A stretch of DNA of 64,000 nt from positions 1 through 64,000 of the forward strand of contig JAFRRS010000023.1 in the NCBI GenBank assembly GCA_017427985.1, given 5' to 3'. Below, in pieces: positions 8,558-58,979 of this stretch; the stretch's first letter is position 1; the number at the start of each line of letters is the position of its first letter. Both the position numbers and the translations under genes were made by a program. This stretch comes from Bacteroidales bacterium. GTDB lineage: Bacteria > Bacteroidota > Bacteroidia > Bacteroidales > F082. Under the pieces are notes generated by a model that was not told where the DNA came from, ran no database searches, and saw nothing but the letters and a program-made list of their open reading frames with translations.

Positions 8558-8585
8558 GTATAGACGTGCCATGGCGCGTCTATAC
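8558..8585. repeat. GTAGAGACG-family palindrome (variant), possible terminator
   Basis: Perfect 9-base arms GTATAGACG / CGTCTATAC flank a near-palindromic centre containing CCATGG. It is one of eight related palindromes in this window and lies just after the stop codon at 8535. Confidence 0.7.
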
Positions 8586-32800: not shown

Positions 32801-33493
32801 AACGGCTGGACATTTGTCACTGTTGAAGGTAACAAGCCATGGGTCATCGGCTCATACAGTGGCAACCACTATGCTAACGCCAACGGCTATGGTGACGATG
32901 TCGACAACGAGCAGTGGTGCATCTCCCCTGCCATCGACCTCAGCTCACGCGACTATCAAAACGTGACTCTGACATTCATGAACGCGACGAAGTTCGACGG
33001 TCCGGCACTCGAGCTTTACATCTCGAATGACTATGACGGTCAGGATCCAACTGCTGCAACATGGGAGCCATTGGAATACATTCAATCAGAAGGCAACTAC
33101 ACATGGACAGAGTCTGGTGAGATTTTGTTGGATGAATTCATTGGAAGCACATTCCACATCGGCTTCAGATACATCAGCACCATAGACGAAGGCGCTGCAG
33201 CATGGGAGGTCGACGACATCATGATCGTTGGAGAATTCTATGACAATGTCATAACAGCTGAAACAACTCTTAGCGTTGATGTCTGGAACAACAGCAACGA
33301 GCTCATGATTGAGAACAATGGCAACGAGACATTGAATGTTGTGGTTTACAACATCGTTGGCCAGCCAATGTTGAGCAAGAGAGTCGCAACAGGTTCCAAC
33401 ATCATCCGTCACAACCTCGCAGAAGGCGTTTACATCGTGAGAATCGCCGACAGCAAGGAGATGACGAGCGTGAAGGTAGACGTGAGACGATAG
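26894..33493 (+). CDS. Giant modular T9SS-secreted surface protein
   Basis: A 2199-residue protein with a signal peptide (MKRRFTLLLAAFFMLMTSLAFGQ) and a C-terminal T9SS type A sorting domain (VVVYNIVGQPMLSKRVATGS...EGVYIVRIADSKEMTSVKVD). Five chitobiase C-terminal-like modules (ATIYYTLDGTDPT signature) are encoded near 27445, 28267, 29228, 30911 and 32515. Two OB-fold-like modules (YALVQGVVTFIDGRNIYIQD) lie near 27703 and 29473. Two blocks, each of Ig-like, unknown, chitobiase-like and choice-of-anchor J-like modules (WCISPAFDL), lie near 30034-31620 and 31630-33240. No catalytic domain is recognised, so adhesion or polysaccharide/protein binding is likely. It would be exported across the outer membrane and attached or released by T9SS. 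It is transcribed alone and followed by a strong palindrome with a T run. Confidence 0.85.
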   Translation: MKRRFTLLLAAFFMLMTSLAFGQTREEVVAYTLDGTITGGSSGYATESEITQDELTWMVMGNTTMNPWRIGGKSITNEDRTVYSTGTISDNITKIVVTHGTASNITVNSMTLVVSANADFSNPVSTLTGDFVASSTTTFTRPTATDWTGKYYKITYNVTVSQNSNKFVQFISAEFYKESGGTPSVATPTFSPAAGTYYAAQNVTISSTTTDATIYYTLDGNDPTTSSAVFSSPIAISETTTVKAMGVKAGMNNSAIASATYTIEAAPTPITIAEARALAANEYALVQGVVTFIDGRNIYIQDETAGIDLYLNSNTVPSGLALGDMVLGYGKKTAYNGLVELTGINGGDASQFSIVSTGNTLPLAEKTIAEINADGAGSNMLQATRVKVVDAIIGTINTSSNTPLTQGENSINIYKVPALNNISAGDAVDVIAVIGYYNNPQLRVASASDVEIHVAPQYVATPTFSPEAGVYTSAQSVTIACETEDATIYYTLDGTDPTANSTVFSDAIEISENTTIKAFAVKEGMLDSEIASATYNIELPTLTFNKLASHNDVTDNGIYMIVDVAGGYALTSANGSSSAPTAVAVTIENDAISGNIADELQWNFTAVEGGYKINPINSTSTYLYTTSTNNGVRVGDNTNNVWELDITDNANYHGFKNVAFTRYLGVYNNADWRTYTTIHNNIKNTQIEIFVLGDAPVHTYYAVNVATGIANGTVEVSPTTAEAGTTITVTATPATGYELATLTYTVGQSTFNINQETMQFTMPSGDVTVNATFSELEHVATPTFTPAAGSFITAQQVEIACATEGATIYYTTDGTEPTENSAVYAEAFTVSSTTTVKALAVKEGMNDSDIASVTYTIIEPMTIAAARAIEANQYALVQGIVTFIDGRNVYVQDETAGIDLYLNSNTVPSTLALGDMVLGYGKKTVFNGLVELTAINGSNDNQFVIVSTGNPLPVAVKTIAEILADHNGDKMLQSTRVQIVDATIGAINTNNNTPITQGESTLNIYKMPVVEGLEEGDNVTVIGVIGCYNNPQLRVAMANDVTFTHPAGIFVNPSSLSGFTYVYEEGPSNVKTFNITGRSLTAATHIYAPENYEMSSFPGDNFYPESHITINTYTGVYNYTIKVRLKAGLEVGTYDENITITQSEVGDMAIALSGSVTGDQPQPQGGYTRISDLSQLTSGAKVVFAARFDENATSYYAMTAQASGKPTGVLFTSVIDEDETLPAEITDEEETYYWTVDVDGDNYTFTNANGDVLGYTSSTNFATGGDNTAWAITYQTSEATAMVPEYSAFVINNVNNAIRAFALNSNHNFGPYHTQNIAADNYNFFIDIFATAGGGTLTCATPTFTPEAGTYYEAQEVAISCNTADATIYYTLDGSDPDENSEIYTEPISVEESMTIKAIAMKEGYESSNIATAEYTIILGAVTIFNQDWENGMNDWTFVTVEGGNAWTIATYSNNHYAYANGYNGGVNEQWCISPAFDLYTYSNATLTFRNAKNYTGPDLQMFFSNNYDGENPATATWTELEFNKSTGSYAWTESGTIDLANFTGESCYIGFKYTSTENAAAAWEVDDITLMGFTTQTYINVTPSALTGFTYIVGNGPSQVQTFTVSGGNLPPAPGGSTGGITITCSNTHYEFSLDGEEFWPYTIGIQATGTLEPTTVYVRLEEGLPVGPWDGVVTFEDGGFEVTATVSGTVTEEPIPGDDWNRIYALSDLHDGDQVIIASRYDATVGDGYYAMPAVVTGKPDGVLFTSVNDGGVEKLPAEISGDADTYLWNVTLDGDVITLVNAAGDTLGYSSSTNFAGNVNTEWNIVLETSGEGAMIPNYTGFVITNGTTTNRGIAKNASHKFGAYSTSNLNNSDYNFYMDLFVQGGSVTPTVATPVFSMASGTYYEAIEVEITCATEGATIYYTTDGTDPDENSEVYTEPIMVEESMTIKAIAMMEGYDNSGIASVNYVIITDVEVLLYQDWEGEMNGWTFVTVEGNKPWVIGSYSGNHYANANGYGDDVDNEQWCISPAIDLSSRDYQNVTLTFMNATKFDGPALELYISNDYDGQDPTAATWEPLEYIQSEGNYTWTESGEILLDEFIGSTFHIGFRYISTIDEGAAAWEVDDIMIVGEFYDNVITAETTLSVDVWNNSNELMIENNGNETLNVVVYNIVGQPMLSKRVATGSNIIRHNLAEGVYIVRIADSKEMTSVKVDVRR

Positions 33494-33497
33494 TAGG

Positions 33498-33517
33498 AGA
33501 TGTTTCCTGAAACGTCT
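33498..33517. repeat. Degenerate GAGACG-family palindrome
   Basis: Arms AGATGTTTC and GAAACGTCT with one mismatch, directly after the stop of the 2199-codon gene. Confidence 0.5.
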
Positions 33518-33525
33518 AAATTATT

Positions 33526-33553
33526 GTAGAGACGCGCCATGGCACGTCTCTAC
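33526..33553 (+). terminator. GTAGAGACG-family palindrome with T run
   Basis: Perfect arms GTAGAGACG / CGTCTCTAC around a near-symmetric CCATGG centre, followed by GTTTTTTTG. It has the form of an intrinsic terminator for the cargo gene and belongs to the dispersed palindrome family. Confidence 0.7.
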
Positions 33554-33585
33554 GTTTTTTTGATAGAATTGACAGACAAAAAAAA

Positions 33586-33611
33586 TAGAGACGTTTCGGG
33601 AAACGTCTCTA
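33586..33611. repeat. GAGACG-family palindrome, 11-base arms
   Basis: TAGAGACGTTT and AAACGTCTCTA with a four-base loop. Read on the minus strand it lies downstream of gcvP and is followed by TTTTTTTTTGTC, so it may terminate gcvP. Confidence 0.7.
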
Positions 33612-33627
33612 CAATGTTTCATCCCGT

Positions 33628-40052: not shown

Positions 40053-40123
40053 CAAAAATCTTCAACAATCATTTATATTAACACCACAACATTTCATCCC
40101 GTACGTATAAGGCATTATACCAT

Positions 40124-40145
40124 GAGACGGTCAGCGGACCGTCTC
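40124..40145. repeat. GAGACG-family palindrome at the end of the GH3-beta-lactamase gene
   Basis: Arms GAGACGGTC / GACCGTCTC with loop AGCG. The stop codon and the last codons (VETVR) of the 40131-43019 gene are inside it. TTTCATCCCGT lies just upstream, as at 33617. Confidence 0.7.
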
Positions 40146-43019
40146 TACGGCATTGTAAAAATATTCGTGTATGTGCGTCCTGATGTCGAGTTTCGACAGT
40201 TTATTGTTCGAAGAATCCGGATAAACCCTGTTCGACAAAAATATCACAATCAATTGATTTTCAGGGTCTGCCCACACAAAAGTGCCGGTAAATCCAGTGT
40301 GCCCGAAGCTCTTCATCGACGATTGTTTCGCAGGCGTGTAATACGGCACCGAAGGGTCAACTTCAGGTTTGTCGAAACCGATTCCGCGACGGTTCATGTT
40401 ATCTTTAAACGGCGCCGACGTGAATTTCCTAATCGTATATGACGACAAAAACCGCTTGTTGTTTGCATATCCCTCATTCAGAAGCAGTTGCAACATCACG
40501 GCGAGGTCACGGGCATTGGCGAAAAGTCCGGCATGACCTGCGACACCGCCAAACAATGCGGCTGCCTGGTCGTGCACGTCACCGCGAAGCTGCTGCATCC
40601 TGAAATAATTGTCGTTCTCAGTCGGGGCAATCTTTTCTATCGCGATGTGTTTCAATGGCTTATAAAAAATATGATTCAGATTCAGCGGCTTGTAAAAACT
40701 CTCTTCAACATATTTTTCAAACGGCATATTCGTCACCATTTCCACAATTTTCGGAAGGAAATAAAAGCCCAAATCGCTGTAAGTGTACTTCTTATCGCCT
40801 AATTTCAACGCTGTCACCTTGTCGAAAACATCAAATTTGAAGTCTTTCGAGATGTACATGTCTTTCGCCACGCGCACGGTATGCTCCTCGTCAATGCTTT
40901 TTCTGAAAACCTCAGGGTCGGGCTTGCCGTCAACCAACAAAGACTGATATATCGGAACCCAAGGCGTGAAACCTGCCTGATGCGTCATGATTTCAATCAG
41001 TTTGATATCGGCCTTATCAGTGTTTCTTAAATATGGGAAATAATCACCAAGAGTGCTCTCGAGACTAATTTTGCCGTCGTCGTAAAGCTTCATGATGGCA
41101 AAAGTTGTTGCAAAAACCTTTGTCAGCGAGGCGATGTCGTAAACATCATCACTTTGGACCTCATGTACGCAGTCGTACGTGAAATGTCCGAAACATTTTT
41201 CATAAATAATCTTGCCGTCCTTCATGGCAAGAATCTGGCATCCCGGAAATGCCTCGATTTCAATACCATTCAATGCAATGGAATCAACTTTTCTGGTTAA
41301 TTCATTGTCAATCAACGAAACAGGAAGCGTCTCAGGTGTCAGCATGTCTTCAAAACCCAAGCCTTCGCCAACTTTGTATTTTTTATTAATCGTGACAGGA
41401 AGTTTTCCCACAGGATTGAGCTTGCCAACCATCACGTCAACAACAGCATTTACTGCACATCCCCTGTCTTCGTAGCCGATGATGATAGCAGCGGGAGTCT
41501 TCTTGAAAGTGAATTTGTTCAAGGCGTACGGACACGCGAAAAGATTGAAAATTATTTTGTTGTCTTTGCTAATATCCTTCACAAATTCAACAACATAATT
41601 TGTGATGCCGAAGTCTTTTGTAGCATAAATCGAGGTGTTTTGGATGTTTACGACGACTTTCTTGTAATTCTTCAGCTCACTGAGAATCCGCTGTTTTTCA
41701 GAATTGTTGCAATTTTCGGCAACTAAAAAGCTGTTCGCGTCATAACCTTCCTTTTTGAGTTTTTCACCCACATTGTCTGTCTTTCCGAAAGTCACCACGG
41801 CGATTTTTTGAGATTTGTCGAGAGGAAGCGCATCCCTGTCATTTCTAAGCATCGTAACCGCTTCATTATAAAGCCTTTGCCTCAAATTATAATAACTCAC
41901 CTGATGCAAGTCATTATCCACAAACAATTCCGATTGCGGTTTATATTTTGCGATTCCAAGACGATATTTATATCTCAAAACTTTCTTGCAACTCTCCTCC
42001 ACCCTATTGGCGACATCTTCTCTATCCATTTGATTTACAATGTATAATATTGTCATTTCAGGGTTTATCGGCATCAGAACCACATCCACGCCAGCCAAAA
42101 TCGCATACAATCCGACATTATCAGGATGAACGCCTTGATAAGCACCCTTCATCTCCATCGCATCGCTGAAAATGATTCCGTCGAAGCCCATTTCCTTCTT
42201 CAAAAGACCTGTCACCACATTCTTTGAAATCGACGACGATAGGTTTTTCTGAGGCTCCAAGGCAGGCATGTAAAGATGTCCCACCATCGCGCCTGCAACT
42301 CCTTTTTTTGTCAGATAATCAAAAGGATAAAGCTCGATTTTTTTCAATTCCTTAAGTTTTTTATTGACTTTTGGAAGCGTCTCGTGCGAATCGGTTTTCG
42401 TGTCACCATGCCCCGGGAAATGTTTGATTGTCGGCAAAACGCCGTTATTCTGAAGTCCCATGGCGTACTGAAGTCCGCGCTCAGCAACTGCTTTCGGGTC
42501 AGAGCCGAAACTGCGCATCCCTATGACAGGATTCGTCGGCTCGTTGTTCACGTCAACGTCAGGTGCGAAGTCGATGTTGATGCCAATACGGCGGCACTGC
42601 TCGGCAATCTGAGCTCCCATCTCTCCAATAAGTGATTGATTCTGAATGGCTCCAAGCGTCATCTGGAACGGATATGAGATTCCGTCGTTGAGTCTCATTC
42701 CCAGTCCCCATTCACCGTCGATGCCTACCATCAAAGGCGTTTGCGCCATAAATTGCCATTCGTTAACCTGCTTCAACAAAGGCTCGGCATCAGTGCGGAA
42801 AAACGTCACTCCACCGATGTTATATTTTTCGATAAGTTCCTGAATCTCAGCAAAATACGGCTTGTTTGGCAGATTCGCACGCACGTTTATCAGCTGCCCT
42901 ACACGCTGCTCCACCGTCAGCGAGTTATAAACCGAATCAACCCAACGGTCTTCATCCGACTGGGCTTTGGCGACAAAACATAAAAACAGGACAATTATCA
43001 GTAAAAACAGTTTCTTCAT
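40131..43019 (-). CDS. Secreted GH3 beta-N-acetylhexosaminidase fused to a beta-lactamase-like serine hydrolase
   Basis: A 962-residue protein with a signal peptide (MKKLFLLIIVLFLCFVAKAQ). Residues about 30-370 are a NagZ-type GH3 domain (GGVTFFRTDAEPLLKQVNEW, KHFPGHGDTKTDSHETLP, FSDAMEMKG), which would release GlcNAc from peptidoglycan fragments. A GH3 C-terminal sandwich follows (to about 590). The final part is a class C beta-lactamase/esterase fold with SLTK (nucleophile Ser), YSDLGFYFL and FGHTGFTG. This fusion is known in Bacteroidota and is probably a cell-wall recycling or remodelling enzyme. It overlaps the thioredoxin gene by one base. The end of the gene is formed by a dispersed palindrome. 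Confidence 0.88.
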   Translation of the reverse strand: MKKLFLLIIVLFLCFVAKAQSDEDRWVDSVYNSLTVEQRVGQLINVRANLPNKPYFAEIQELIEKYNIGGVTFFRTDAEPLLKQVNEWQFMAQTPLMVGIDGEWGLGMRLNDGISYPFQMTLGAIQNQSLIGEMGAQIAEQCRRIGINIDFAPDVDVNNEPTNPVIGMRSFGSDPKAVAERGLQYAMGLQNNGVLPTIKHFPGHGDTKTDSHETLPKVNKKLKELKKIELYPFDYLTKKGVAGAMVGHLYMPALEPQKNLSSSISKNVVTGLLKKEMGFDGIIFSDAMEMKGAYQGVHPDNVGLYAILAGVDVVLMPINPEMTILYIVNQMDREDVANRVEESCKKVLRYKYRLGIAKYKPQSELFVDNDLHQVSYYNLRQRLYNEAVTMLRNDRDALPLDKSQKIAVVTFGKTDNVGEKLKKEGYDANSFLVAENCNNSEKQRILSELKNYKKVVVNIQNTSIYATKDFGITNYVVEFVKDISKDNKIIFNLFACPYALNKFTFKKTPAAIIIGYEDRGCAVNAVVDVMVGKLNPVGKLPVTINKKYKVGEGLGFEDMLTPETLPVSLIDNELTRKVDSIALNGIEIEAFPGCQILAMKDGKIIYEKCFGHFTYDCVHEVQSDDVYDIASLTKVFATTFAIMKLYDDGKISLESTLGDYFPYLRNTDKADIKLIEIMTHQAGFTPWVPIYQSLLVDGKPDPEVFRKSIDEEHTVRVAKDMYISKDFKFDVFDKVTALKLGDKKYTYSDLGFYFLPKIVEMVTNMPFEKYVEESFYKPLNLNHIFYKPLKHIAIEKIAPTENDNYFRMQQLRGDVHDQAAALFGGVAGHAGLFANARDLAVMLQLLLNEGYANNKRFLSSYTIRKFTSAPFKDNMNRRGIGFDKPEVDPSVPYYTPAKQSSMKSFGHTGFTGTFVWADPENQLIVIFLSNRVYPDSSNNKLSKLDIRTHIHEYFYNAVETVR

Positions 43020-46877: not shown

Positions 46878-46881
46878 TGTG

Positions 46882-46903
46882 GAGACGTACGGCCGTACGT
46901 CTC
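46882..46903. repeat. Perfect 22-base GAGACG-family palindrome
   Basis: GAGACGTACGG directly joined to CCGTACGTCTC, between the MATE gene and the 46922 gene. No T run follows on the plus strand. Confidence 0.75.
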
Positions 46904-46921
46904 TACGATAATTCATAAATA

Positions 46922-51866: not shown

Positions 51867-52419
51867 TAAGCCACTCCCCGACCTCGTGCTTCACGTAGCT
51901 CTCGCTGATGATATGCGACGGCAAGGTCTTCTTCTGACACATCTTGCGGTTCTTGAAAATCTTGGCGTAGTCGCGTTTGATGTCGTCACCCAAAAGTTCG
52001 TCATGCTCCGTGTGATGACACGTAACATTATCATTAACAACGAATTTGAATTTCTTAAACTCAAACAAATCCTGCATCGTGAACTTGAACGAGGTCGCGC
52101 CATCGCTTCTCCTCGCATGATATTGCACCGTCCCGACACTGCTTTTCAACGACTTCATCGGCTCGATGACAGGGTTTATCACCAACTTCGGACCAGTGAA
52201 ATCGCTGCACAACACATAAAAACCGCCCAATGAAGTCCCTATCATCGCAAACACCTCGTTCTCCTTCGCGAAATCGTTGATTTTCTTGATGGAAGCCGCC
52301 GCATGATGGTCAACTTCAAGCGCACACCATTCATAATCAGGATAATACATGTTAAGGAAGCCCACCGTCTGAGTGAACGGCGAGCCTCCAAAACCGTGAA
52401 TATACACTATCTTTTTCAT
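51844..52419 (-). CDS. YqiA-like alpha/beta hydrolase
   Basis: A 191-residue protein beginning KKIVYIHGFGGSPFTQT with the nucleophile elbow GTSLGGFYVL, as in the YqiA/YcfP (UPF0227) esterase group. ANDN-type acid and late His are less clear (VVNDNVTCHHTEHDELLG). The ATG at 52419 is two bases after the stop of the phosphorylase fusion; another ATG at 52431 overlaps it. It is the last gene of the glycogen operon. The C-terminus is encoded by a dispersed repeat. Substrate unknown. Confidence 0.78.
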   Translation of the reverse strand: MKKIVYIHGFGGSPFTQTVGFLNMYYPDYEWCALEVDHHAAASIKKINDFAKENEVFAMIGTSLGGFYVLCSDFTGPKLVINPVIEPMKSLKSSVGTVQYHARRSDGATSFKFTMQDLFEFKKFKFVVNDNVTCHHTEHDELLGDDIKRDYAKIFKNRKMCQKKTLPSHIISESYVKHEVGEWLTVISTEA

Positions 52420-52421
52420 AA

Positions 52422-55400
52422 TTATATCCATTTTACGAGCGGCAAATCCTGTCTGTTAGGCAGCATCTCGTTAGTCGGGAAAATTCTGAACGTGTAGTTG
52501 AATATTCCGGCGTATGTTATCGGCATGCTGATGTAATATCTTGTCCAGCCTTCGCCAGCGTCGACAAGCTTCAATGGCTCAACACGTAACAGCTTGTCAA
52601 TCACATCGTTAGTCTTGTCAGCAATCATCAATTCCATGCCAACGTCGCCTTTCTGCAATCCCGGTGTCCTCAGCGTAATCTCGGCAATAAACACGTCGCC
52701 GAACGTCAGCGGACGCACATCAGGATCTGGCACCTTGATGGATTCGACCTCAATCTTGTCCCAGTTCGCCTCAATATTGCGCTTCCAGTCGACAATTTCA
52801 AACGCCTTGGCGTATCTGTTGGCGCGCATCCAGTTGGTGCGCTCGATGAGTCTGTTGTAATACTGCGCGAAATAGTCGTCGAGCATGCGTTTCATTGTGT
52901 AGAACGGCGCAATCTGCATCATGTCATTCTTCATGCACTGAATCCATTCCGTCGGGATGCCGTCGTTGTCTCTGTTGAAATACAACGGGATAATCTCATT
53001 TTCGAAGGTGTTGTAAATCGTCTCGGCGTCAAGCTCATCCTGATAACGTTGGTCGTCGTAGGTGCGTTCCTCTTTAATTGCCCAGCCTGCCTTCGGACGA
53101 TAACCCTCTGCCCACCAGCCGTCGAGCACCGAGAAATTGAGCGTGCCGTTCATCGCAGCTTTCTCTCCAGATGTTCCCGAAGCCTCCAACGGACGTGTCG
53201 GTGTGTTCATCCAAATATCAACACTCGAGGTCAGAAGCTTACCGATTTCCATATCGTAGTTATTGATAAACAACACTTTACCGATAAATTCTTTTCTTCT
53301 TCCAACTTCGATGATATTCTTAATCAAATCCTGACCAGCCTTGTCGTTAGGGTGCGCTTTTCCTGCAAAGAGGAAGATGACCGGACGATTCGGGTCGTTG
53401 ACGAGTTCTGCCAAACGTTCGAGATTTCTGAACAGAAGATGCGCGCGTTTGTAGGTGGCGAAACGTCTCGCGAAGCCGATTATCAAAGCCTTTTCGTTGA
53501 GTTTCTCAACCGTCTCGATGATGAGTTTCGGGCTCTCAGAGCGACGGCGCATGTCATCGGCAAGCTTTACCTTGATAAACTCTATCAAATTGTGTTTCAA
53601 TTCCTTACGAATCTCCCAGAAGTCTTTTGCAGGAACGTCCTGAATCTTTTCCCAGACTGTCGGGTCAGATTGGTTTGCAAGATAATTCTCGCCCAACACC
53701 TTATTATATAAGCGCTGCCAGTTCTTGTCTGCCCATGTCGGGAGATGCACTCCGTTGGTGACATAGCCGATATGGTTTTCCTCGGCGAAATATCCCGGCC
53801 ACATCTGCTGGAACATCTCACGGCTCACTCTTCCGTGGATTCGGCTCACTCCGTTCACTTCCTGACTGAGGTTCACAGCCAAAACGCTCATTGAGAACTT
53901 CTCGCTCGGGTCGTTGTGGCGCATGCGTCCGAGATTCATGAAGTCTTCCCACGAAATGTTGACTCTGCCTGGGAATTGCGACAGATACGTCCTCATCAGA
54001 TTCTCCTCAAAAGCGTCGTGACCTGCCGGTACTGGCGTGTGCGTCGTGAACAATGTCGAAGTCTTCACAAGTTCCTTCGCCACATCGAAATCCAGATTGT
54101 GTTTTGTTACGTAGTGGCTGAGTCTTTCAAGACCGCAGAAAGCCGCATGACCTTCATTGCAATGGAATATTGTAGGCTTGATATTCAATGCATTAAGCAT
54201 CCTGATACCGCCAACGCCGAGGAAAAGTTCCTGTTTGATACGCATCTCGCTGTCGCCGCCATAAAGCTGTCCAGTGATGGCTCTGTCCTCTGGAGAATTT
54301 TGCTCGATATCAGTGTCAAGCAGATACAAACTGATTCTTCCCACGTTGACTTTCCACGCTTTCGCAAACACGCTCCTACCTGGGAACGCGATGCTTATTG
54401 TCACCCAGTTGCCTTCTTCGTCACGAACAGGCTCCAACGGCAAAAGCGAGAACTTCTGCGGCAGGTATTGCGACAATTGGTCACCCCAAACCGAAAGCTC
54501 CTGATTGAAATAGCCGTAACGATATAACAGACCTATAGCCAATAAGTTGGCATTAGAATCGGAAGCCTGTTTGAGGTAGTCGCCGGCAAGAATGCCGAGA
54601 CCGCCAGAATAAATCTTCAGTGACTTCAACAAACCGTATTCCATGCTGAAATACGCGATTTTGTTGTCGTTTTCGGGCTTCACCGACATATATTTCTTGA
54701 ACTTGTCGTAAACTTTATTCAGTTTCTCGACAAAATTTGCATCCTGTTCAAGGCTCTCAATCTGGAACTTGGTAAGGCTCTTAATAAGAGCTATCGGGTT
54801 CTGTTCAAGACGCTCAAATGCAACAGGGTCAATGCTTTCGAACAACTCGATGGCATCAACGTTCCAGCACCACCAAAGGTTGTTGGCGAGTTCCTGCAGC
54901 TTCTTCATACCGTCTGAATACACCGGTTCAATCAAAATTTTCTTCCACGTCGGGGCGTCTTGTTTCTTATAGTCAAAATTTCTTAACACTTCTGAATATT
55001 TTTTGCTCTGTTTAATATACTCTTTTCCTCCTGATTTTCTGATGGCAAGGTCGTAGGCATTTAAATAATTGACAATCAATTCTTTCCAAACCAATTTAGA
55101 TGCAATTTCAATCGCCTTTTCAGAAATCTGCTTATTCTCTTTTTCAGTATGGGCGGACATCTTTTCTATGACTTCCGCCATCTTGTTGACAACCGTCTCA
55201 CCGTTTCCCTCCTCGCGATGAATCAATGTAACAGCTTCATTATCAATATTTTCACTCAGGATATATCTTCCGAAACCTGAAATATCCATTGTGATTGTCG
55301 GGATGCCGTGTGCGATGCTCTCAAGCGGAGTGTAACCCCATGGCTCATAATAAGATGGGAACACCGAGAGGTCGAAAGCATACAGGAATTCGTTGTATTT

Positions 55401-56660
55401 TATGTTGAAAATGCCGTCATTGCCGTTGAGATAAGCAGGCACAAACATCACTTTCACGCGGTCGCCCTCATTGTTTTGCAAGCCGTTTTCGCGCAAAGCA
55501 TTGAGAACCATATCCCATTGATAATCATGGACATGATGCGTACACGGGAAGTCAGTGTGACCCATAATCTCGACATCTTTGTTGAGACGATGCTGCAAAT
55601 CCTTCGAAGGGCCTGCAATATTTCCAGGAACAGCAATCACCGCCACGATGTCACGTTTCAGGTTCTCATCGTGGTTCAGCTTCGCCAACATCTTGATATA
55701 CAAATCGGTGCCCTTGTTATGGAACTCATAGCGGCCGCTGTTGATAATAAACATCGAATCGCGTGAGACCTCTTTCCCGCAAAGGGCGTCGATGATTTCA
55801 AAAATCTTTTTTCTGGATTTTTCGACGCACGTAGAGACGTGCCGCTGACCGTCTCTGCGGGTATTAAAATCAGAATTGATTCCGTTTATCGTGATAAAAT
55901 CCGGTTTCCTCAGCAGAAACTGCTCACATTCCTGCGCCGTAATCTCGCTAACAGTGGTGAAAACGTCTGCGTTTTGCGCAGATTTCATCTCCATCGACTG
56001 CTGCGATACTATGTTGAAACGGCTCGCCATCGTCTGCCAGTTGTACGAGTCGAGCTGGCTGTAAAGCGGCAGTCCGTTGCCGCTGATGGCGCGTCCCAGA
56101 TACGTCGCATGCGTGGTGAAAACCGTTGAAATATATGGGCAATGCTCTTTGATGTACAGCACTCCCGCACCCGTCATCCACTCATGGAACTGCGCCACGA
56201 CGTTGTCGTCTGGACCGACATTCCACTCCACGAAGCTCTCGATGACTTTTCCAGCAGCGTAACCGAAAACAACAGGCTCAATATAATCCCACTGACCCTG
56301 AATCGAGTCGAGTTGATAACGCTCCCAGAGATGTCCAAGTATCTCATTCTTAATTGAATACATCGAAGTATAGTCGATGAGGATAGCAATCGGTCTGGCT
56401 GAAATCTTCCAGCGTCCTACGCGCACCTTCACGCCAAGCCGCTCCGCCACATTCTCACGCCACTCGGCAAAAAGCGACGGGTCTTCAATGAAATACATGG
56501 TCTCATGCGCCTCTTTCACGATGTCAGGACCAATAGTAATATAATGATCATCAAGCAGTTGCTTCAGTTCTTCGGCTTTTGTGGAAATGACGGTGTAAAT
56601 ACCGCCCACCATGTTACAAACTTCCCAGCTTGTCTCAAATAAAAAATCAGGCTTCTTCAT
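52422..56660 (-). CDS. Glycogen synthase (GT3) - alpha-glucan phosphorylase (GT35) fusion
   Basis: A 1412-residue bifunctional protein. Residues about 1-550 are a GT3-type glycogen synthase (FETSWEVCNMVGGIYTVIST, QFHEWMTGAGVLYIK, TTHATYLGRAISG, SVFPSYYEPWGYTPLESIAH). Residues about 590-1412 are an alpha-glucan phosphorylase (LQELANNLWWCWNVDA, YFSMEYGLLKSLKIYSGGLG, HCNEGHAAF, EASGTSGEKAAMNGTLNFSV, the last next to the PLP site). One half builds glycogen from nucleotide sugar; the other releases glucose-1-phosphate. Residues about 268-277 (DGQRHVSTC) come from a dispersed palindrome, in frame, just after NGINSDFN in the synthase half. The gene lies in a glycogen operon, after GH57. Confidence 0.88.
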   Translation of the reverse strand: MKKPDFLFETSWEVCNMVGGIYTVISTKAEELKQLLDDHYITIGPDIVKEAHETMYFIEDPSLFAEWRENVAERLGVKVRVGRWKISARPIAILIDYTSMYSIKNEILGHLWERYQLDSIQGQWDYIEPVVFGYAAGKVIESFVEWNVGPDDNVVAQFHEWMTGAGVLYIKEHCPYISTVFTTHATYLGRAISGNGLPLYSQLDSYNWQTMASRFNIVSQQSMEMKSAQNADVFTTVSEITAQECEQFLLRKPDFITINGINSDFNTRRDGQRHVSTCVEKSRKKIFEIIDALCGKEVSRDSMFIINSGRYEFHNKGTDLYIKMLAKLNHDENLKRDIVAVIAVPGNIAGPSKDLQHRLNKDVEIMGHTDFPCTHHVHDYQWDMVLNALRENGLQNNEGDRVKVMFVPAYLNGNDGIFNIKYNEFLYAFDLSVFPSYYEPWGYTPLESIAHGIPTITMDISGFGRYILSENIDNEAVTLIHREEGNGETVVNKMAEVIEKMSAHTEKENKQISEKAIEIASKLVWKELIVNYLNAYDLAIRKSGGKEYIKQSKKYSEVLRNFDYKKQDAPTWKKILIEPVYSDGMKKLQELANNLWWCWNVDAIELFESIDPVAFERLEQNPIALIKSLTKFQIESLEQDANFVEKLNKVYDKFKKYMSVKPENDNKIAYFSMEYGLLKSLKIYSGGLGILAGDYLKQASDSNANLLAIGLLYRYGYFNQELSVWGDQLSQYLPQKFSLLPLEPVRDEEGNWVTISIAFPGRSVFAKAWKVNVGRISLYLLDTDIEQNSPEDRAITGQLYGGDSEMRIKQELFLGVGGIRMLNALNIKPTIFHCNEGHAAFCGLERLSHYVTKHNLDFDVAKELVKTSTLFTTHTPVPAGHDAFEENLMRTYLSQFPGRVNISWEDFMNLGRMRHNDPSEKFSMSVLAVNLSQEVNGVSRIHGRVSREMFQQMWPGYFAEENHIGYVTNGVHLPTWADKNWQRLYNKVLGENYLANQSDPTVWEKIQDVPAKDFWEIRKELKHNLIEFIKVKLADDMRRRSESPKLIIETVEKLNEKALIIGFARRFATYKRAHLLFRNLERLAELVNDPNRPVIFLFAGKAHPNDKAGQDLIKNIIEVGRRKEFIGKVLFINNYDMEIGKLLTSSVDIWMNTPTRPLEASGTSGEKAAMNGTLNFSVLDGWWAEGYRPKAGWAIKEERTYDDQRYQDELDAETIYNTFENEIIPLYFNRDNDGIPTEWIQCMKNDMMQIAPFYTMKRMLDDYFAQYYNRLIERTNWMRANRYAKAFEIVDWKRNIEANWDKIEVESIKVPDPDVRPLTFGDVFIAEITLRTPGLQKGDVGMELMIADKTNDVIDKLLRVEPLKLVDAGEGWTRYYISMPITYAGIFNYTFRIFPTNEMLPNRQDLPLVKWI
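55831..55858. repeat. GTAGAGACG-family palindrome inside the GT3-GT35 gene
   Basis: Arms GTAGAGACG (55831-55839) and CGTCTCTGC (55850-55858), one mismatch. The reading frame passes through without a stop and adds about nine residues. Confidence 0.75.
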
Positions 56661-56673
56661 TTTAATAAATCAG

Positions 56674-56695
56674 GAGACGGATTTTCATCCGTCTC
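56674..56695. repeat. GAGACG-family palindrome between glycogen genes
   Basis: Arms GAGACGGAT / ATCCGTCTC with loop TTTC, in the 39-base gap between the GH57 and GT3-GT35 genes. It could attenuate transcription or stabilise the upstream message. Confidence 0.75.
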
Positions 56696-56699
56696 TACT

Positions 56700-57833
56700 T
56701 TATTTCATTCTGTTAATAAAATCAGTTAAAATGTTCATGTAGTTGATGTAATAGTCGTAAGGGGTGCCGCCCTGGTGTTTGGTGCACATCGCCGAGAAAT
56801 TCTCTGCTGCCTGAAGTGCGCGCCAGTCACGCAAAAGCTCTTCATCCTTTGAGGCTTTCACCTTCTTGAAGCATCCGTACAAGGTGGCGAGAGCGTCATC
56901 CTGCATGTCGTTGCCCATCCAGTTGGAGAGGTCGCGCTCCTCGTCCTGGCACGAGAGCGGAATCGGGGCGTCGAACACACCAGTTGGCTGCAGCTTGTCG
57001 ACAATCTGATGCGGAGTAACCAATTGGAAATCAGTGTTTTTCAAGATGGCATCAGGCAGATATCTCATAAACTCAAAGATGCCCGTCGAAGCGTCCAAAG
57101 CCTCGCCAAACGTCTCATAATCAATGAAAATGTTTACAAGCTCCTCCTCTTCAGGAAGCGAGTTAAGCCAGTTCACGAAGTCATCTACATTATAACTCTG
57201 ATGACTGAACCTCAATGTTATCTCGTCGCTAATCTTCCAGTTACGGAGCATCACCTTAAGTTTAGGATTTATCGCGTTGACATACAGATAGTTAGGACTC
57301 TTCCAACCCAAGACGTGCTTAGCGCCTTCAGTCAAGATGAGGTCGAAGCCCATTTCAGCAACATCAGCACCGATTTCGTTGGAATAAATGAGCTCGGTGT
57401 TATGGAATGTCTTCGGTCTGACGTTGAACACCTCTTTCATAAGTTTTTTATGCTCAGTCACTTCCATCTTGAAAGCGTCCTTATTCATCAGCGATGCCAC
57501 CGAATGCGAGTAAGTCTCAGCCAGCACCTCCACGTTGCCTGTCGCCACAAGTTTTTTGAAGCTCTCCAAAGCATACGGTGCATACACCTCCATCTGCTCA
57601 ATTGCCGGTCCCGAGAACGAAATAGCAAATTTCATCTTGTTGCCAAGCTCTTCTATCTTTTTGAGCATCAATTGGTTCATCGGAAGATAGCAACGCTCTG
57701 CCACGCGCTGCATCGTGATGCGGTTGTTGTAGTCGTCATAGTAGAAATGACGTTTCCCGATATCGAAGAAACGATATGTGCGGAGCCTGTACGGCTGATG
57801 CACTTGGAAATAAAAACAGATCGATTTACTCAT
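56700..57833 (-). CDS. GH57 family alpha-glucan-active enzyme
   Basis: A 377-residue protein of the short GH57 type. It begins SKSICFYFQVHQPYRLRTYR (HQP near the N-terminus is a GH57 mark). FHNTELIYSNEIG carries the nucleophile Glu region and FIDYETFGEA the acid Asp region. GH57 members are alpha-amylases, 4-alpha-glucanotransferases or branching enzymes; in this operon a role in glycogen branching or trimming is likely, but the activity cannot be told from sequence. Confidence 0.88.
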   Translation of the reverse strand: MSKSICFYFQVHQPYRLRTYRFFDIGKRHFYYDDYNNRITMQRVAERCYLPMNQLMLKKIEELGNKMKFAISFSGPAIEQMEVYAPYALESFKKLVATGNVEVLAETYSHSVASLMNKDAFKMEVTEHKKLMKEVFNVRPKTFHNTELIYSNEIGADVAEMGFDLILTEGAKHVLGWKSPNYLYVNAINPKLKVMLRNWKISDEITLRFSHQSYNVDDFVNWLNSLPEEEELVNIFIDYETFGEALDASTGIFEFMRYLPDAILKNTDFQLVTPHQIVDKLQPTGVFDAPIPLSCQDEERDLSNWMGNDMQDDALATLYGCFKKVKASKDEELLRDWRALQAAENFSAMCTKHQGGTPYDYYINYMNILTDFINRMK

Positions 57834-57848
57834 ATTATTGAATTTTAA

Positions 57849-58979
57849 TTATTTATCCACTAATCTACGTCCCAAGACGATTCCTGTCCAATTTAAAGAT
57901 ATAACATGCAAAGTGGAAATCTCTTTCCCGAATCCAGTAATGCCACAGTTATACCTTATTCTTATATAGTTGTTCTCAACACTATTTCTTCCGCGATTTA
58001 TCTTGAAATCAAAAACAAAACCTCCTTCAAGCATTATGTGGCATTTATCCAAACTCTCGGTTCCAGGATGCTTCTTTTTCGGATATGCCTCTATATTACC
58101 ACCGATTCCAAGTGCAGGAGCAACTCTAATTGAATTATTATCAATGACATTATAACTCAAAACAGCATAAAAAGGCAAACAGTTCACATGCGAGCCTTTC
58201 GGATAGATGCTATCATTTGAAAACGACTGGGCAAAACGTGTGTTTCCACTCATAATATCATATCCAAGAGCCAACTCAAACCTTTTATAAACAATTTCAA
58301 AGCACAATCCTAAACCAAAAATCGGTTGTGGCATGTCTCCAGTTGCAAATCCGGAGCATAATTCCAAGCTGAATCCCCATCCCCAATCTGAAACCTCATA
58401 ATATGGCTGTCTGATGAGATTTTTTGCAATCCATTTATAACGGCTGTCAGGATTATCCGCCAAATACTTGTCAATCCGTTCATTGTATAACTTATTATTC
58501 CGATTATATAACGGTTCCAGCGACCAGTCCAGATAAATAGTCAGAAAGTCTTTGTCTTTTGCAGCAAGATTGGCTTCTTCAATATTTGAACTCAGCACAT
58601 GCTTGTCCTCAACGCTCCTACGATATAATTGTGGGTACATGTAGTCATATTTTGGTCCCACTTTGTCCTTAAACGAATCAAAATATGTCGAATCCGAACC
58701 AAGCAGCGTTGTCAACTCATCAAAATCTCTTGTCCAAAACAGAATCAGCGATAACTCCCCGGGAGTGAACGAATAATAGTTATCGTCCTCCAGCTGCAAC
58801 AGATAATCCTTGATTTCCCTCATTTTCTCATAGTCACGTTCCAAGAATTTCTCAAGCATATACGCCCTACCCTTTTCAATCTTTTCCATCTTCGACTGTT
58901 GGATTTCCATCTCAACCTGTGCGAAAGACGGGAAGACTGTGGCGACAAACAATGCTATAAGAATTAAACTCTTTTTCAT
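57849..58979 (-). CDS. Outer-membrane-like protein inside the glycogen operon
   Basis: A 376-residue protein with a signal peptide (MKKSLILIALFVATVFPSFAQ). Residues about 25-195 are helical and TPR-like (KGRAYMLEKFLERDYEKMRE). The C-terminal half shows beta-barrel strands (WGWGFSLELCSGFATG, GLGLCFEIVYKRFELALGYD, IMLEGGFVFDFKI, HVISLNWTGIVLGRRL). It overlaps the GT4 gene by 4 bases (ATGA) and lies 15 bases before GH57, so it is co-expressed with cytoplasmic glycogen enzymes, an odd setting. Family unknown. Confidence 0.6.
   Translation of the reverse strand: MKKSLILIALFVATVFPSFAQVEMEIQQSKMEKIEKGRAYMLEKFLERDYEKMREIKDYLLQLEDDNYYSFTPGELSLILFWTRDFDELTTLLGSDSTYFDSFKDKVGPKYDYMYPQLYRRSVEDKHVLSSNIEEANLAAKDKDFLTIYLDWSLEPLYNRNNKLYNERIDKYLADNPDSRYKWIAKNLIRQPYYEVSDWGWGFSLELCSGFATGDMPQPIFGLGLCFEIVYKRFELALGYDIMSGNTRFAQSFSNDSIYPKGSHVNCLPFYAVLSYNVIDNNSIRVAPALGIGGNIEAYPKKKHPGTESLDKCHIMLEGGFVFDFKINRGRNSVENNYIRIRYNCGITGFGKEISTLHVISLNWTGIVLGRRLVDK

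Follow-up and report, generated by a model that had tools for sequence, protein, structure and literature searches.

How does a dispersed palindrome come to lie in frame within the gene of a metabolic enzyme, and what does it do to the protein? The question is raised by a copy in a glycogen synthase gene in the window, by which we mean the whole 64,000-nt stretch analysed here. The window lies on contig C21 of the 2.49 Mb assembly of genome G000, whose named relatives, Candidatus Limimorpha among them, are Bacteroidales MAGs from the rumen and the horse gut; judged by sequence, the genus is probably Candidatus Limimorpha. The initial annotation had proposed that the repeat added about nine residues to the enzyme without breaking the frame, and that such elements act as a source of new peptide segments. 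The account we arrive at, and consider probable, is that a REP-like palindrome has spread in both the genes and the intergenic DNA of the genus, that it is kept in frame in tolerant loops, and that its types are replaced in register.

The host gene and the palindrome family

The protein carries a Glycogen_syn domain (PF05693, E 2.5e-98), and the model of its GT3 half matches yeast Gsy2 with a Z of 34.7 and an rmsd of 3.1 over 535 residues, which places it in the GT3 fold. The proposed tie between the protein segment and a palindrome holds: the translation NGINSDFNTRRDGQRHVSTCVEKSRKK is present and the 28-nt palindrome GTAGAGACGTGCCGCTGACCGTCTCTGC sits exactly at 55831-55858, coding on the minus strand for R268-T277, and the frame is retained. 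The features that concern us here are as follows.

52422..56660, minus strand: gene for a GT3 glycogen synthase of 1412 aa, one half of which is phosphorylase-like
55818..55865, minus strand: length-variable GT3 loop NTRRDGQRHVSTCVEK, with different repeats in orthologues
55831..55858, minus strand: in-frame copy of the dispersed 28-nt palindrome with a degraded S5 core, encoding residues 268-277, RRDGQRHVST
8558..8585, no strand assigned: intergenic palindrome copy, S1 core
33526..33553, no strand assigned: intergenic palindrome copy with perfect arms, S1 core
33585..33612, no strand assigned: intergenic palindrome copy, S3 core
40121..40148, no strand assigned: S5-core palindrome copy that overlaps ORF 40131-43019 at its 3' end, stop codon included
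46879..46906, no strand assigned: intergenic palindrome copy, S2 core
56671..56698, no strand assigned: S8-core palindrome copy lying upstream of the glycogen synthase gene, in a short gap

The family follows the pattern GTAGAGACG-N10-CGTCTCTAC, from which the copy at 55831-55858 deviates at one of the 18 fixed positions. Copies with perfect arms split into subfamilies by their self-complementary 10-nt cores: S1 (TGCCATGGCG), S2 (CACGGCCGTG or TACGGCCGTA), S3 (TTTCCTGAAA), S4 (ATGTGCACAT), S5 (GTCAGCGGAC), S6 (CGATTAATCG), S8 (GATTTTCATC), S9 (CAAAATTTTG) and further types, and a sister family, GTAGGGGCGAAT...ATTCGCCCCTAC, is also present. At up to 3 mismatches the pattern occurs at 7 sites in the window, against 0.02 expected from shuffles, and about 166 times in the whole G000 genome, against once for a reversed-pattern control. 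With up to 1 mismatch allowed, copy numbers in the 24 genomes of the same genus that were scanned range from 2 to 71 (controls 0); of 16 genomes belonging to other Bacteroidales families, 9 have none. Because the window copy is degraded and its loop is variable in length, one might suspect a chance resemblance to the palindrome in a fast-evolving part of the protein, but the seven matches in the window, and the near-perfect elements that occupy the same loop in relatives G077, G107, G026 and G109, speak against it, and the controls rule it out for all practical purposes. Rfam gave no match within 52000-58000.

Several observations on individual copies may be recorded here. The last codons and the TGA stop of the 962-aa ORF 40131-43019 come from the palindrome at 40121-40148, and genome G077 carries another one, GTAGAGATAAGGCATGCCTTATCCCTAC, at that site. 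At 33480-33520 there is one more palindrome, a degraded one (AGGAGATGTTTCCTGAAACGTCTAAA), next to two good copies. At three positions (46879-46906, 56671-56698 and C21:109617-109644 of G000), G077 has tandem arrays of the GTTAATCAGTTAGTCAGTT type in place of the intergenic palindrome. Two close relatives, G090 and G099 (200 kb each), are almost without perfect palindromes, yet their AroA and AnmK retain repeat-derived peptides in degraded form, which suggests the trace of a past burst; we had considered this close pair for observing turnover and dropped it, as almost no perfect copies were there.

Residence within genes is frequent. In a 464-kb sample of G000, 23 of 44 copies (shuffle 0) lie within ORFs, called greedily at a length of at least 80 aa, and the main host proteins belong to real Pfam families: EPSP synthase, AnmK, a helicase, an LD-carboxypeptidase, TruB, GH97, GH78, a methyltransferase and an EamA transporter. 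AroA alone has four copies in this count (five in the analysis of its model) and AnmK three. Eighteen of the in-ORF copies are read in frame 0, as VETxxxTSL, and five in frame 1, as RDxxxxVST; none of the 23 uses frame 2, which has an in-frame TAG stop. The peptide VETFPETSLEIVF is an example of a segment derived in this way, and VETFPETSLQ-like peptides in proteins of rumen Bacteroidales are to be read as repeat-derived and not as conserved motifs. In-frame copies in many genes bear out the idea of the initial annotation that the repeats supply peptide segments; we saw no sign that the new peptides are useful, and they look tolerated, with an effect on the enzymes that would be near neutral.

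Occupied and empty loops in three enzymes

What did not survive comparison with orthologues is the simple addition of about nine residues. The distance from the NGI to the LCG/LSG motif is 33-37 residues in GlgA orthologues that bear an element and 31-35 in element-free orthologues of the same clade, single element-free proteins lack 2-6 residues relative to the window protein, and the alignment to yeast Gsy2 crosses the repeat segment with essentially no gap. As the loop lengths with and without a repeat overlap, the repeat in GlgA took the place of native loop sequence. Residues 267-271 of the model have a pLDDT below 50 and a helix begins at 272; the displaced sequence would have been part of an unconstrained loop before that helix.

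The orthologue alignment, which had been suggested as the check, reveals no conserved peptide common to this segment; what the initial annotation missed is that the loop is a site common to several repeat types across the genus. In the closest orthologue, that of G077, which shares 95% identity over GT3, an S2 element occupies this loop and is read in the same frame; elsewhere the loop holds S4 (G109) or S2 (G103, G107, G026), an exact copy of another dispersed repeat, GATTTCTCGACTNCGCTCGAAATGAC (G079), or a one-mismatch copy of the latter (G035); the remaining orthologues are without a recognisable repeat. Over 49 GlgA orthologues, or about 51,000 codons, all recognisable repeats fall in this one loop. 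The repeat GATTTCTCGACTNCGCTCGAAATGAC was found in 8 of the 8 relatives searched (control 0). At up to 2 mismatches its copies number 23-25 in G103 and G035 and 4-10 in the other six, and G000 has 3 copies at up to 3 mismatches. A glgA tree built with the loop removed has a weak backbone, on which repeat type and presence are scattered and occupied and empty loops are left unordered.

AroA and AnmK behave as GlgA does, with loops that hold different types in different species and are empty in others. In AnmK, most species have an empty loop 2 (LANRLSLPYDKDG), whereas in the others (LATRVETHGRASLQYDRDG) it holds S2, S4, S4b or S6 cores; AroA loop 3 reads MPKSLHLDG when empty and MPVVETFPETSLHLDG or other types when filled, and is absent from more distant AroA. 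The AroA model places all five elements of G000 in or next to coils (residues 61-67, 136-144, 170-178, 286-294 and 371-379). Two side observations concern AroA. Loop 1 is filled by other short in-frame repeats, SYPSYPSYP, SPTNPTNP, GINGIN and SVPSASIAP, in L113, L115, L117-L120, L122-L125 and L128. At loop 5, insertion and deletion seem linked, because many species are without the conserved segment IGVKFEKISNDELIV that adjoins the repeat site (L112, L113, L115-L118 and L120-L128).

Taken over the three enzymes, 109 orthologous sequences (about 75,000 codons) contain 62 recognisable elements in ten loops, and five codon-shuffled controls contain 0. Each of the ten loops uses one reading frame and holds 2-5 core types. 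If each extra type is counted as one event with two equally open frames, the chance of such agreement is 0.5^20, and it is about 6e-4 when the 18:5 genome-wide frame bias is allowed for, values that treat types as independent events and are weakened by relatedness and by site preferences. Elements often begin in the same alignment column (AroA loops 1 and 3, AnmK loop 1), and boundaries are shifted in AroA loop 2 and AnmK loops 2 and 3. The clearest single case is AroA loop 2 of two sister species, where a common coding flank, TGTGGAAGACAATTT, is followed by GTAGAGACG-TTTCCTGAAA (S3) in G000 and by GTAGAGACG-GATGAGAATC (S8) in G077; the sisters are 90% identical, and the two cores differ at 8 of 10 positions while both are self-complementary.

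How types might change at a site

In the model that we prefer, a REP-like palindrome with GTAG, a hairpin, fixed outer arms and a variable 10-nt core has spread through the genus, genic and intergenic DNA alike. Within genes, a copy would survive only where it sits in a tolerant loop and leaves the frame intact; two frames are open, V-E-T-xxx-T-S-L and R-D-xxxx-V-S-T, the third having a TAG stop. At an inherited loop site, one type would later be swapped for another in register, such that the peptide core changes and length and frame are kept. It is this last step, replacement in register at inherited sites, that is favoured by the use of one frame per loop while types vary from 2 to 5, although site-specific amino-acid preferences could also cause a loop to keep one frame.

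A different history, less probable to our minds but to be taken seriously, is that the loops are merely insertion-tolerant places at which every species acquired a repeat of its own, having lost another or never had one. Empty loops are common among orthologues, two unrelated repeat families occupy the same GlgA loop, and AroA loop 1 has accepted in-frame repeats of other kinds (SYPSYP, PTNPTN), all of which recurrent insertion would readily accommodate; it is harder to reconcile with 62 elements in ten loops that hold one frame per loop despite two being open, or with start columns that so often coincide. With type and presence scattered on a poorly supported glgA tree, insertion, loss and interspecies recombination are not cleanly separable. 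It seems improbable, on the other hand, that a single ancestral insertion at each site gave rise to new types in place, both arms changing together by hairpin-templated correction. The arms do remain self-complementary while cores differ, and a study of Rickettsia japonica leans to common origin and divergence for RPE-4, RPE-6 and RPE-7 (PMC3767692), but core types present at one locus reappear in unlinked genes and at intergenic positions, and sisters that are 90% identical differ at 8 of 10 core positions. Those two facts together imply that copying between loci is needed.

A mobilising or copying activity is probably at work, and copying between dispersed copies by way of their common arms would account for the changes of type. 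No donor copy was traced for any replacement. It is tempting to speculate that the outer arms serve as recombination handles between which cores are exchanged in register at inherited sites, continually rewriting three to four loop residues of housekeeping enzymes in a genome-wide exchange of loop cassettes, but we hold this to be rather unlikely.

As to what might mobilise the palindromes, Y1 transposases that cleave single-stranded DNA close to a REP are regarded as the movers of REPs (PMC8266576). At C21:111868 the stop codon of a gene lies within GTAG in both G000 and G077 and the hairpin continues only in G000, a site pair that fits insertion at GTAG. G000 has a single Y1 transposase gene (Y1_Tnp), 1.35 kb from the nearest copy and not directly flanked by one, and none was found in the incomplete assemblies of G109, G035 and G079, all of which carry copies. 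A RAYT/Y1 transposase, the obvious candidate, may be the mover but is not supported as such, its presence not tracking that of the palindromes; PMC3733652 reports no obvious correlation between RAYTs and REPs.

Known palindromic repeats and the present family

The genus comprises about 99 genome-sequenced species, with many occupied loops in several genes, and its sites can be seen as a series from empty through occupied to exchanged, so that the choice between insertion hot spots and ancestral insertion can be tested by comparison and in the laboratory. Reports of palindromic repeats within genes have mainly concerned Rickettsia and a small number of other bacteria. In-frame REPs and Rickettsia palindromic elements (RPEs) are already known (PMC3733652, PMC3767692, PMC10969869), as are different types at the same orthologous site (PMC3733652, PMC3767692), and for Rickettsia no decision was reached between hot spots and divergence from one ancestral insertion. 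On in-frame palindromes in Bacteroidetes, the open-access literature searched held nothing beyond PMC3733652, and a search with the literal motif returned unrelated papers only. Within that literature, what is new is the Bacteroidales host, the in-gene fraction, the number of occupied loops per gene, the sharing of one loop by two unrelated families and the constancy of the register.

The nearest relatives in form are the GTAG REPs. As described in the available text of Di Nocera et al. (2013; PMC3733652), these are short hairpins in high copy number; they have a GTAG end, fall into many subfamilies that differ by complementary stem changes, supply stop codons from their termini, and include in-frame copies inside genes and, in one pair, Xanthomonas recB, different REPs at about the same site. 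All of this is shared by the present family, whose copies begin with GTAG and continue as a hairpin, in keeping with a GTAG tag beside a palindrome of 20-40 bp. In a GTAG REP the tag at one end is unpaired; perfect copies here pair GTAG...CTAC, and many others are without the second TAC. GTAG REPs are mostly intergenic in that account, whereas about half of the sampled copies here (23 of 44) are intragenic; and no RAYT gene of the kind that flanks GTAG REPs was seen beside the copies. Bacteroidetes are named in the same text only under the CGTC repeats, with whose description the GlgA-loop repeat of G079 agrees: on the other strand it reads CGTCATTTCGAGCGCAGTCGAGAAAT, which fits a CGTC tag and a stem starting with AT. 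GTAG plus a hairpin is also the substrate form of TnpA-REP systems, in which the tyrosine transposase is REP-associated (PMC8266576), the difference being that G000 has only one Y1 transposase, 1.35 kb from the nearest copy, and that none was found in the carriers G109, G035 and G079.

In behaviour the closest parallel is with the RPEs, palindromes inserted in frame in protein genes, which likewise occupy housekeeping genes and exposed parts of proteins, and for which different types are found at the same site in orthologues (PMC3767692, PMC10969869). RPEs belong to Rickettsia and measure 68-192 bp in the R. japonica table (PMC3767692), so that a 28-nt repeat falls well short of their range of about 70-190 bp, and the likeness drawn here is one of behaviour. 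By analogy, then, the family may best be filed as GTAG-type REP-like repeats that colonise coding loops and appear to work, in that respect only, as the Rickettsia palindromic elements do.
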